This document shows, piece by piece, positions 4,191 to 8,634 of a DNA stretch of 38,096 nt. Below the pieces are notes generated by a model. It worked only from the letters and a program-made list of their open reading frames with translations. It searched no databases and was not told the DNA's origin. Location: assembly GCA_028284885.1 (NCBI GenBank), contig JANQQW010000193.1, positions 1 through 38,096 of the forward strand, read 5' to 3'. How positions within the stretch are numbered: position 1 is the stretch's first letter; each line of letters starts with the position of its first letter. Both the position numbers and the translations under genes were made by a program. The stretch comes from Planctomycetaceae bacterium (GTDB lineage Bacteria > Planctomycetota > Planctomycetia > Planctomycetales > Planctomycetaceae).

Positions 4191-5342
4191 ATGGCGTCCA
4201 ACAAGGCCCGCGAGTGGTTGAAGTCGACGTTCGAGCCGGGCAAGCCGATCGAGATCGACAAGATCTTCAAGCTGGCGATCAAGCATGGTGCCTCGGACAT
4301 CCACCTCCAGGTCGGCCGGCCCCCCGTGTTCCGCATCAAGGGGACGCTCCGCGAACTCCAGATGGACCCCATCACGGAGGACGCCATGGTCAGCCTGACC
4401 TTCCCGATGATGGACCAGCGAAACCTGGACATCTTCCACCGAGACGGCGGGGCCGACTACGCCAAGGTCGTCGCCCACGAGGGGAACGACTGGCGGTTCC
4501 GCGTGAACCTGTTCACGCAGCTCGGCAAGGTGGGCATGGTCGCCCGTAAGATCGAGCAGTTCATCCCGCCGTTCGAGAAGCTGCACCTCCCCCCCAAGAT
4601 GGAGGACCTGTGCAAGTACGACATGGGGATGGTGCTGCTCGCCGGCGTCACGGGATCCGGCAAGAGCACGACGATCGCGTCGATGCTCAACTGGATCAAC
4701 CAGAACATGAACAAGCACATCCTCACCATCGAGGACCCGATCGAGTTCGTGTACACGTCGGACCAGTGCCTGATCAACCAGCGCGAGCTCGGGCAGGACG
4801 TACGGGACTTCCACGTCGCCATGTCCCACGCCGTGCGTGAGGACCCGGACATCATGCTGGTGGGCGAGCTTCGCGACAAGGACACGTTCGAGACCGCCAT
4901 CCACGCGGCCGAGACGGGTCACCTCGTGTTCGGCACGATCCACGCCTCGAGCGCGCCGGGCACGATCAGCCGTATCCTCGACCTGTTCCCGCAGTCGATG
5001 CACTCGGCGATCCGGGCCTCGATGGCGATGAACATGCGGGCGATCGTCGGGCAGAAGCTGCTGAAGACGATCGTCGACGAGCCGGGCCGCGTGCCGATCA
5101 CCGAGATCATGATCTTCAACCCGACCGTGCGAAAGCTGGTGATGGAGGAGGAGGACCACAAGCTGTCGTCGGCGATCTCCATCGGCAAGGACGAGGGCAT
5201 GCGGCTGTTCAACGACAGCCTCTACGAGTTCCTGCAGAAGGAGTACATCAGCCGGACCGCTGCGTTCGAGATCTCCCCGAACGTCGAGGAGTTGAAGATG
5301 CGGCTGAAGGGCATCGACGTGAAGGCGTCGGCCATTCTCTGA
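4191..5342 (+). CDS. pilT: type IV pilus retraction ATPase, PilT family
   Basis: PilT-family hexameric ATPases depolymerise type IV pili and power twitching. The 383-aa protein has the N-terminal PilT PAS-like region (DKIFKLAIKHGASDIHLQVGR), Walker A GVTGSGKST (residues 152-160), the Asp box (HILTIEDPIEF, 176-186), Walker B (DPDIMLVGELRD, 218-229), a His box (TGHLVFGTIHASSA, 242-255) and a C-terminal PTVRKLVMEE segment resembling the AIRNLIRE retraction motif. No membrane segment or Cys zinc motif is present, as expected. The N-terminus resembles PilT and PilU closely enough that PilU is possible. The PilB-like ATPase follows after 44 bp. No clear promoter was seen upstream. Confidence 0.9.
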   Translation: MASNKAREWLKSTFEPGKPIEIDKIFKLAIKHGASDIHLQVGRPPVFRIKGTLRELQMDPITEDAMVSLTFPMMDQRNLDIFHRDGGADYAKVVAHEGNDWRFRVNLFTQLGKVGMVARKIEQFIPPFEKLHLPPKMEDLCKYDMGMVLLAGVTGSGKSTTIASMLNWINQNMNKHILTIEDPIEFVYTSDQCLINQRELGQDVRDFHVAMSHAVREDPDIMLVGELRDKDTFETAIHAAETGHLVFGTIHASSAPGTISRILDLFPQSMHSAIRASMAMNMRAIVGQKLLKTIVDEPGRVPITEIMIFNPTVRKLVMEEEDHKLSSAISIGKDEGMRLFNDSLYEFLQKEYISRTAAFEISPNVEELKMRLKGIDVKASAIL

Positions 5343-5386: not shown

Positions 5387-7258
5387 ATGGCCCGCCGAAT
5401 CCCGACCATCCGAAGAGCCCTCGCGGTTCTGTCTCTCTCGTGCGCCCTGTCCGTTCTCGCGGCCCCGGGCTTCGGTCAGGATCCGAATCAGGAGCTGGCC
5501 GCGGGCGACGGGGCGGCGGCGACAACTCCGGCACCGGCCGCGTCGGACGGCCCCGCGTGGCCGGAGAAGGGAGGCCGCATGGCACCCAGCCCGGCCGTCG
5601 TGGGTGAAGGGGGCTTCTTCCGCGGCAACTCCCCGCCGCCTGCGGTGGACGGCACCGGCCAGTACCTCTCGACCATCCACATCGTGCTGCTGCTCGCCTT
5701 CTTCCTCGGCTGGGTCCGCAGCGTCGGCTGGGCCGGGAACGATGCGAACACCCTCAGCGTCCGGCCGAACTTCTGGACGCCCATCCTCATCGCGTCCGGC
5801 TTCGTCGGCATGCTGCTCGCGATCGTCTCGCCGTTCTCGCTGTTGGCCTACGTGCTCGCACTCGTCGGATGGACGGTCCCGTTCGGCCTCTACGTCAAGG
5901 AACGGAACGGTCGCGTCCCCGAGGCGGCCAAGGTCTTCACGAAGGACCACCTCAACGGGGTCGCGGCCGAGTGGCTCGCCAGGATCGGCATCAACGTCGG
6001 CGGCGAACGCGAGGTCTTCGAGCCGGTCGCCGGAGCCCCCATCCGCTTCTTCGGGAAGTCCGGCAGCGAACGGGGCGAGGTCGATCGCACTGGGCAGGTC
6101 GAGTCGTCCAAGGGCTTCCTCGTCGCCAAGCAGATGATCTACGACGCGATCCAGAAGCGCGGCACCGACGTGCACATGGAGCCGAAGGAGGACGAGGTCA
6201 GCATCCGGGTCCGCATCGACGGCGTGATGTTCCCGCAGGAGCCGCTCGAGAAGCCGCTCGGCGAGGCGATCCTCAACATCTTCAAGGTCCTCGGCGGGAT
6301 GGACATCACCGAGCGCCGCCGCCCCCAGGACGGCAGCTTCCGGGCCGAGACCGAGGGCCGCGAGATCGACTTCCGGCTCGCCACGCAGGGCACCCGGCAC
6401 GGCGAGAAGATGTCGCTGCGGATCCTCGACCAGTCGAACTCCGTCGGCTCGATCCGCGAGCTCGGCCTGCGGACCGCCGTCCGCGAAGGGCTCGAACGGG
6501 TCATCGACCTGCCACACGGCATGATGCTCGTCTGCGGTCCCACCGGTGCCGGCAAGTCGACCACGTTGTACGCCTGCCTGAACGGCATCGACACCGGCCA
6601 GCGGAACGTCATCACCGTCGAGGACCCGGTCGAGTACAAGATCGACGGGGTCAACCAGATCGAGATCAACCAGAAGGCCGGCCAGACCTTCGCCGCGTCG
6701 CTCCGCAGCATCCTCCGGCAGGACCCGGACGTCGTCATGATCGGCGAGATCCGGGACCAGGAGACCGGCGAGATCGCCTGCCAGGCGGCGAACACCGGCC
6801 ACCTCGTCTTCTCCACCATCCACGCGAACGACTCGTTCACGGCACTCTTCCGACTGATGGAACTCGGCATCCAGCCGTACGTCGTCGCGAACTCGGTCTC
6901 CGCGATTCTCGCCCAGCGACTCGCCCGCCGGCTCGACCCGAGGGTCCGTGAGGCGTACCAGCCGGACCGGAAGACGCTCGCCCGCATGGGCGTCCAGGTT
7001 GGCGACGACGCCGTGATGTACCGCCCCCCGACGAACGGCCACGCCGGCGACGCGGTCCCGTACAAGGGCCGCGCGGGCGTGTTCGAGTTCCTCGAGATCG
7101 ACAGCCGCATCCAGGACCTGATCCGCGACCAGGCGAGCATCACCCGCATCAAGGAGGTGGCCCGACAGTACGGGATGCTGACGATGCGCGAGGAAGGCCT
7201 CCGCCTCGCCGTCCGCGGCGTCACCTCCGTCGAGGAACTCGTTCGAGTCGTCAAGTGA
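5387..7258 (+). CDS. GspE/PilB-type assembly ATPase with N-terminal membrane domain
   Basis: The C-terminal ~380 residues are a secretion/pilus assembly ATPase: RGTDVHMEPKEDE (258-270), Walker A GPTGAGKST (384-392), Asp box ITVEDPVEYK (409-418), Walker B DPDVVMIGEIRD (446-457) and TGHLVFSTIHANDS (470-483). The N-terminus is unusual: a signal-peptide-like stretch (about 10-30), a Pro/Ala-rich linker (31-90) and three hydrophobic segments (about 97-113, 131-150, 152-170). If the signal is cleaved outside, three crossings put the ATPase in the cytoplasm. The usual MshEN/GspE-N domain is absent. The tetracysteine zinc motif before YKGR is also missing (RRLDPRVREAY, then RPPTNGHAGD). The exact partner system is unknown; the neighbours are pilT upstream and a CvpA-like gene 53 bp downstream. 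Confidence 0.85.
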   Translation: MARRIPTIRRALAVLSLSCALSVLAAPGFGQDPNQELAAGDGAAATTPAPAASDGPAWPEKGGRMAPSPAVVGEGGFFRGNSPPPAVDGTGQYLSTIHIVLLLAFFLGWVRSVGWAGNDANTLSVRPNFWTPILIASGFVGMLLAIVSPFSLLAYVLALVGWTVPFGLYVKERNGRVPEAAKVFTKDHLNGVAAEWLARIGINVGGEREVFEPVAGAPIRFFGKSGSERGEVDRTGQVESSKGFLVAKQMIYDAIQKRGTDVHMEPKEDEVSIRVRIDGVMFPQEPLEKPLGEAILNIFKVLGGMDITERRRPQDGSFRAETEGREIDFRLATQGTRHGEKMSLRILDQSNSVGSIRELGLRTAVREGLERVIDLPHGMMLVCGPTGAGKSTTLYACLNGIDTGQRNVITVEDPVEYKIDGVNQIEINQKAGQTFAASLRSILRQDPDVVMIGEIRDQETGEIACQAANTGHLVFSTIHANDSFTALFRLMELGIQPYVVANSVSAILAQRLARRLDPRVREAYQPDRKTLARMGVQVGDDAVMYRPPTNGHAGDAVPYKGRAGVFEFLEIDSRIQDLIRDQASITRIKEVARQYGMLTMREEGLRLAVRGVTSVEELVRVVK

Positions 7259-7311: not shown

Positions 7312-8085
7312 ATGCCCGGCATCATCGACGGTCTCATCGTTCTCGTCTTCGGACTGGTCGCCTACCTCGTCGCGTCCGAGGGGATCTGGACGGCCGTCAT
7401 GATGACGATCGTGGTGATCCTCTCGGGGCTGGTCGCGTTCAACTTCTTCGAGCCGGCCGCCGAGCTGCTGCAGAACAACGGACTCGCCGGGTACGCGTTC
7501 CAGCTCGACTTCGTGATGCTCGTCGGGATCTTCGCCGCCTGCGTGGGACTGCTGCGGCTCGCGCTCTTCCAACTCTCCCCGGACGAGGTCGAGACGCCCG
7601 AGGCGTTCGGCGAGATGGGCCGGTGGGCGGTCGGCGGGCTGTGCGGCTGGATCACCACCTGCTTCCTGTTGGCCGCGCTGCACACGGCCCCCATGCCCCG
7701 CGAGTTCATCGGTTTCGCCCCGGAACGGAAGAACCTGCTGAACGTGATCGCCCCGGACCGGCAGTGGCTCGGCTTCGTCCAGTACTGCTCGAACGCCGGG
7801 TTCGGCAGACGGCAGACCGTCGTGATCGGCAGCGAGACGCGAATCGTCACCCGCACGTTCGACGGGCCGTACATCGCGGTCGCCGGCAGCGAGCAGGAGC
7901 AGTGGCCCTCGTTCCCCATCCGGTACGCCACCCGACGCGAGGCGTACGCCGGAGGCGGGGGCTCCGGCGGTGGCGGAGGTGCCTACGTTCCCTCGCAGCC
8001 CGCTGGTGGTGGGGGCGGCGGAGGCGAGGGGGGCGGCGGCAACCCGGCCCCGCCACCGACCGGCCCGACCGTCCCGGACTTCTAG
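7312..8085 (+). CDS. CvpA-like integral membrane protein with Gly-rich tail
   Basis: The 257-aa protein starts MPGIIDGLIVLVFG and has four hydrophobic stretches in the first ~130 residues (about 5-22, 25-45, 62-85, 108-125). This layout is like CvpA/colicin-V-production family proteins, whose biochemical role is poorly defined. After the last helix there is a soluble region with a repeated Arg/Thr pattern. The last 50 residues are a low-complexity Gly tail (GGGGSGGGGGAY, then GGGGGGEGGGGN) ending in a Pro-rich stretch. It lies 53 bp after the PilB-like ATPase on the same strand and is probably cotranscribed. Family assignment rests on topology and the N-terminus and is moderate. Confidence 0.68.
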   Translation: MPGIIDGLIVLVFGLVAYLVASEGIWTAVMMTIVVILSGLVAFNFFEPAAELLQNNGLAGYAFQLDFVMLVGIFAACVGLLRLALFQLSPDEVETPEAFGEMGRWAVGGLCGWITTCFLLAALHTAPMPREFIGFAPERKNLLNVIAPDRQWLGFVQYCSNAGFGRRQTVVIGSETRIVTRTFDGPYIAVAGSEQEQWPSFPIRYATRREAYAGGGGSGGGGGAYVPSQPAGGGGGGGEGGGGNPAPPPTGPTVPDF

Positions 8086-8202
8086 ACCGCATCTCACGAA
8101 CGTGTGGCGGTCGTTGATCGAGGGTTTCACGACCAAACGTCCTCCGAGTCGCTACACACAGCCCGGATCGGATCTAGCCCGTACGCCCCGCGAATCGCCC
8201 TC

Positions 8203-8634
8203 GTGACCGCACCGCCGACCCAGGACTCCGTGGACCTCGACGCCCGGCTCGCCCGGATGGAGCGACTCGTCCGTTGGCTCGACGACGAGATGAAGATCCC
8301 CGGGACGGAGCATCGTGTCGGCTGGGACGCCGTCATCGGTCTCGCCCCCGGCGTCGGCGACCTCGCGACGGCGGCACTCTCGGTCTACGTCGTCAACGAG
8401 GCCCGCGCGCTCGGGGCCTCGAAGGTCGTGATCGGGCAGATGCTGTGGAACGTCGCCCTCGACTCGCTCGTCGGCATCGTCCCCGTGCTGGGCGACCTCT
8501 TCGACACGACCTTCAAGGCGAACCGCCGCAACATGAACCTGCTGAAGGCCCACCTCGGCCGCGCGACCGAGAAGGAGACCGTCGTCGAGACGACGGCCCG
8601 GCGTCAGGAGGGCGGCTCCAGCCGCGACGGGTGA
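8203..8634 (+). CDS. DUF4112 domain protein
   Basis: The 143-aa protein matches the DUF4112 pattern: LVRWLDDEMKIPGTEHRVGWDAVIGLAPGVGD, then VGIVPVLGDLFDTTFKANRRN. These G-x-x-P-x-x-G-D loops flank two hydrophobic hairpins (about 48-62 and 82-100), and the protein is probably membrane associated. The function of the family is unknown. The GTG at 8203 was chosen over the open frame from 8104 because the extra N-terminal residues look non-protein-like and the family starts near here. The 3' end overlaps the convergent MFS gene by 31 bp. The charged C-terminus (EKETVVETTARRQEGG) lies in this overlap. Confidence 0.8.
   Translation: MTAPPTQDSVDLDARLARMERLVRWLDDEMKIPGTEHRVGWDAVIGLAPGVGDLATAALSVYVVNEARALGASKVVIGQMLWNVALDSLVGIVPVLGDLFDTTFKANRRNMNLLKAHLGRATEKETVVETTARRQEGGSSRDG

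Follow-up and report, generated by a model that had tools for sequence, protein, structure and literature searches.

The open reading frame at 5387-7258 of the window (38,096 nucleotides, the entire contig C239 of a planctomycete genome) encodes a 623-aa ATPase of the PilB/GspE type with an N-terminal membrane region, situated between genes for a PilT-family ATPase and a CvpA-like protein. The frame occupies exactly these coordinates, and its ATG is the only in-frame start codon close to the N-terminus. The features of the locus are as follows:

4191-5342, forward strand: PilT/PilU-family ATPase, 383 aa, catalytic motifs all intact (TIGR01420 score 394.3, over the cut-off of 319.1)
5387-7258, forward strand: putative membrane-anchored PilB/GspE-type ATPase, 623 aa (open reading frame, motifs, PF00437, hydropathy, AlphaFold2 model)
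5387-5476, forward strand: signal-peptide-like leader, aa 1-30, with a helix at aa 6-24 (hydropathy 1.96 at aa 11-29; helix in the model)
5477-5662, forward strand: disordered linker rich in Pro, Ala and Gly, aa 31-92, predicted to lie outside the membrane (pLDDT <50)
5663-5914, forward strand: three transmembrane helices, aa 93-122, 127-147 and 151-176 (hydropathy, AlphaFold2 model, HMM)
6116-7255, forward strand: T2SSE motor with PilB/PilF fold, aa 244-623 (PF00437 at aa 246-620)
6536-6562, forward strand: Walker A, GPTGAGKST, aa 384-392 (sequence)
6614-6637, forward strand: Asp box, TVEDPVEY, aa 410-417 (sequence)
6731-6757, forward strand: Walker B, VVMIGEIRD, aa 449-457 (sequence)
6935-7072, forward strand: former zinc site, aa 517-562, ending at YKGR, with the four Cys of relatives missing (alignments)
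7312-8085, forward strand: CvpA-like protein, 257 aa, four membrane helices and a Gly-rich tail (PF02674 at 22.9 bits, cut-off 29.3)

The T2SSE match (PF00437) spans aa 246-620 with E=8.5e-110, and with a His box (TIHAND) also present, all four catalytic motifs are intact. The nearest solved structures to the motor are PilF (5oiu) and PilB (5tsh), and Thermus PilF and Geobacter PilB are ~40% identical to the window ATPase over aa 246-619. The motor fold, Walker A and B, and the Asp and His boxes are thus shared with PilB, PilF and GspE, but the protein scores below the equivalog cut-offs of these families (TIGR02538, 408.6 vs 675.65; TIGR02533, 430.4 vs 630.25). Canonical planctomycete paralogues miss the equivalog cut-offs too, for example with 619.8 vs 675.65.

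Published descriptions of PilB/GspE-class motors present them as cytoplasmic and docked on a platform (e.g. PMC11656802). Whereas soluble PilB and GspE dock on PilM or GspL, the window ATPase is predicted to be anchored in the membrane, and its family differs from PilB, PilF and GspE in having a leader, a linker and three membrane helices and no MshEN/N1 domain. The initial annotation had described an exported-looking leader, a Pro/Ala linker, three helices and an intact motor, all of which were seen by hydropathy, the AlphaFold2 model, PF00437 and the motifs. Mean pLDDT of the model was 72.5, with about 70-85 in the membrane helices and <50 for aa 24-93. The same annotation had proposed that the docking domain was replaced and that the motor lies in the cytoplasm, and both proposals were supported: PF05157 (the MshEN docking domain) is absent, with the membrane domain in its place, and the predicted topology puts the motor on the cytoplasmic side. 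The charge pattern fits this topology, with a mean of 5.6 K/R vs 2.7 D/E just past the third helix in 63 relatives. Three canonical paralogues in the same genome carry the MshEN domain, for which the membrane anchor would stand in here. Against Pfam, the three-helix region gave no match above noise.

Full orthologues with the same architecture were found in 22 of 24 other genomes of the family and in some genomes of other families; the named relatives of the gene come from Planctomycetaceae and Schlesneria MAGs. Orthologues from other genera and families, 46-58% identical, repeat the whole set of leader, linker, three helices and motor, which argues that the arrangement is neither a chance fusion nor the product of a misread start. 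Of 392 Planctomycetota genomes, at least 95 contained the membrane domain when searched with a profile of it (a lower bound, as the scan scored up to nine candidates per genome), always inside a frame of 540-1020 aa and never free-standing. The fusion is conserved across planctomycetes, where the initial annotation had suggested looking for it. Every candidate was scored in eleven genomes, and none contained the membrane domain; except for those from other families, all eleven had been matchless in the earlier listing. A contaminant or chance fusion was ruled out by the phylum-wide architecture.

This conservation also bears on an objection raised in the initial annotation, that the start has been misread and a soluble motor is made from a downstream start codon. 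Internal in-frame starts do exist (e.g. ATG at 5579), and relatives without transmembrane helices occur in two f5 genomes, but a product from 5579 would retain all three helices. The membrane domain is also conserved as protein phylum-wide, with near-invariant Trp, Asp, Pro and Asn, and the leaders are alike in kind among orthologues, which show a clearer A-x-A|Q site than the window protein. On these grounds the soluble form was rejected as highly improbable. Gene calls in the relatives came from a simple ORF rule, which leaves their individual start codons uncertain.

A second proposed peculiarity of the design, loss of the zinc motif, held for this protein and not for its family. The CxxC...CxxC pattern before YKGR is absent from the window ATPase and a few others, setting it apart from PilB, PilF and GspE; nearly all relatives retain the cysteines in the alignments, so the loss is local, and zinc loss was dropped as a defining family trait.

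The position of the family was assessed with motor-domain trees. When PilTs were included, the membrane clade received an SH-aLRT of 96, with a soluble paralogue from the same genome (L126) inside it; when PilTs were left out and soluble and TM-less relatives were added, the branch setting off canonical PilB/GspE received an SH-aLRT of 100. The groups are split over several trees with some long-branched rows, and the three quick trees carry SH-aLRT support only. Judged by distribution and tree placement, the fusion is real and old, and represents a planctomycete-wide branch apart from canonical PilB, GspE and PilT. Among the plasmid records with a match (5000), none covers 80% of the window ATPase, and a phage search, little informative here, gave no match. 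Our literature search found nothing on a membrane-anchored PilB/GspE or on a cluster of PilT, membrane ATPase and CvpA-like genes; the conserved novelty of the architecture is clear.

The order PilT - membrane ATPase - CvpA-like is kept across families and classes, frequently with hisF upstream, and in the window the three genes are separated by gaps of 44 and 53 bases, consistent with a single operon. The PilT neighbour could be a separate gene with a shared promoter. In several Planctomycetaceae the PilT gene is elsewhere in the genome yet present, and in G004 the CvpA-like gene is 1.1 Mb distant. The four-helix N-terminal half of the CvpA-like protein resembles CvpA (colicin V production; PF02674), but the window protein remains under the PF02674 cut-off and distant orthologues are extended past the helices; another orthologue scores above the cut-off, at 45.3. 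These extensions comprise about 230-480 extra residues, and in the distant-family orthologues L116, L117, L118, L119, L120 and L121 about 415-485 residues follow the four helices. A DUF4112 protein (window 8104-8634) begins 18 bases past the CvpA-like gene and is possibly the operon's fourth gene.

The adjoining PilT is distinct from the PilT of the canonical pilus locus. A match was found in 41 of 41 planctomycete genomes tested and was taken as orthologous (42-80% identity) in all except G045. This dedicated PilT formed a clade separate from canonical-locus PilT in a quick tree (SH-aLRT 98), and a careful tree separated it from five canonical PilTs with support of 100/100. One possible but doubtful reading is that ordinary pilus retraction depends on the dedicated PilT and that the membrane ATPase controls or positions this PilT, in the manner of PilU, with the anchor at the pilus base. 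PilT is the constant member of the gene set, and Vibrio cholerae provides a precedent: PilU supports retraction only together with PilT, and each assembles as a homohexamer of its own, with a complex of the two considered possible (PMC6821130). Like PilT/PilU pairs, the locus joins related motors and includes a PilT-family ATPase with its catalytic motifs; unlike them, the partner is PilB-like and membrane-anchored rather than a second PilT-like ring. Against PilU-like regulation, these genomes already have a PilT for pili, encoded at the canonical pilB/pilC locus and belonging to a separate clade; such regulation also leaves the co-occurrence with the CvpA-like gene unexplained.

That co-occurrence was complete in the genomes compared. 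The CvpA-like gene was present in 14 of 14 genomes with the membrane domain and in 0 of 13 without it (the eleven described above and two with a TM-less version), in a hand-picked and unevenly sampled set. Five of the positives (G004, G013, G034, G336 and G340) were absent from profile building. On a quick PilT tree, with SH-aLRT support only, five independent pairs on starred branches all pointed in the same direction, although the sign test gives no better than p=0.0625. Of the 13 genomes that lack the membrane domain, 12 yielded a dedicated PilT that could be positioned on the tree, those of G047 and G050 on long branches, whereas in G045 the best PilT was too distant to say; PilT thus persists where the membrane domain and the CvpA-like gene are both gone. 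Joint loss through a single deletion of adjoining genes can explain some cases. It does not easily explain G278 and G337, which have lost the anchor on one side and the CvpA-like gene on the other but retain the motor part in between.

Alignment of 61 membrane members revealed that Walker A, the Asp box and GEIRD are intact in 32 and degenerate in 29. The motifs are intact in all 25 Planctomycetaceae members examined, in most of f2, in one f4 member and in the distant f38 and f94, a spread indicating that the ancestor was probably active. When the intact or degenerate label was placed on the tree of PilT partners, which contains no column of the catalytic trait itself, five changes were needed (bootstrap range 5-5), and as regain of all motifs is implausible we read these as at least five losses. 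The partner PilTs all retain Walker A, the Asp box and Walker B, three of them with a variant His box by pattern matching. Among the degenerate members, conservation is highest in the zinc and C-terminal part (39% identity vs 27% in the motor core), a pattern that retention of an interaction surface would predict. Contrary to the assumption of the initial annotation, what the family conserves in these alignments is not a working motor: catalysis has been lost in many orthologues, in contrast to PilB, PilF and GspE, with the anchor kept. In Planctomycetaceae, the family of the window, the membrane ring probably retains its ATPase activity.

These results can be set against a second alternative, put forward in the initial annotation, in which the protein serves ordinary type IV pili or type II secretion as a motor that brings its own anchor and works on a PilC/GspF platform, bypassing PilM/GspL. 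The intact motifs of the window protein and of every Planctomycetaceae member examined would suit such a motor, as does the presence of PilC/T2SSF and PilM, sought at the suggestion of the initial annotation, in 26 of 26 genomes tested. However, the conserved neighbourhood shows no prominent PilC, pilin or secretin family, nor does the window ATPase have the PilC neighbour of PilB/PilF/GspE genes, and the repeated catalytic losses in orthologues could hardly be afforded by an assembly motor. We consider this alternative unlikely. The related idea that the usual docking is not needed stands in part: MshEN is absent from the protein, but the genome encodes PilM_2, PilC and MshEN-bearing PilB/GspE, so ordinary docking exists in the cell, apparently for those paralogues. 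The PilM_2 of this genome (G000:C276:23914-24960) lies within a 762-aa frame, and in most of the 26 genomes the best PilM_2 match falls in similarly long frames (687-928 aa).

The reading we favor, with a probability of roughly 0.55, is that this anchored PilB/GspE-type branch acts as a membrane-embedded scaffold or second motor tying the dedicated PilT to the CvpA-like partner, two likely partners that the initial annotation had left unmentioned. The motor part would form a ring at the inner membrane, on its cytoplasmic face, where the protein's own helices and the CvpA-like protein would hold it. This ring would be a seat for the dedicated PilT, or a second ring on it, and the dedicated PilT would supply the essential ATPase work. 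Outside the window's family, the membrane ring would have turned into a scaffold in many lineages. The complex may act in pilus retraction, on a pseudopilus or in envelope transport. PilT and GspE go unmentioned in the main text of the essential-gene paper on P. limnophila.

If true, a phylum-wide anchored branch that has a PilT to itself and, apparently, an obligate CvpA-like partner would represent a different form of motor attachment. Repeated ATPase death beside a living PilT would amount to a natural experiment showing which motor of a pair does the work, and the cluster offers a lead on the role of CvpA-like proteins.

Soluble relatives of the membrane ATPase were also observed. The one in its own genome (L126:3156-4547, contig C90) is a 463-aa protein with degenerate catalytic motifs and retained zinc cysteines. 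An L126-type relative was present in 10 of 10 Planctomycetaceae tested, and the six that were extracted group as a separate clade, suggesting that the family pairs an active membrane-anchored member with a soluble member that is dead. In the two f5 genomes, a TM-less degenerate version (L195:4868-6211 and L196:7482-8801) adjoins PilT, and the CvpA-like gene is absent.
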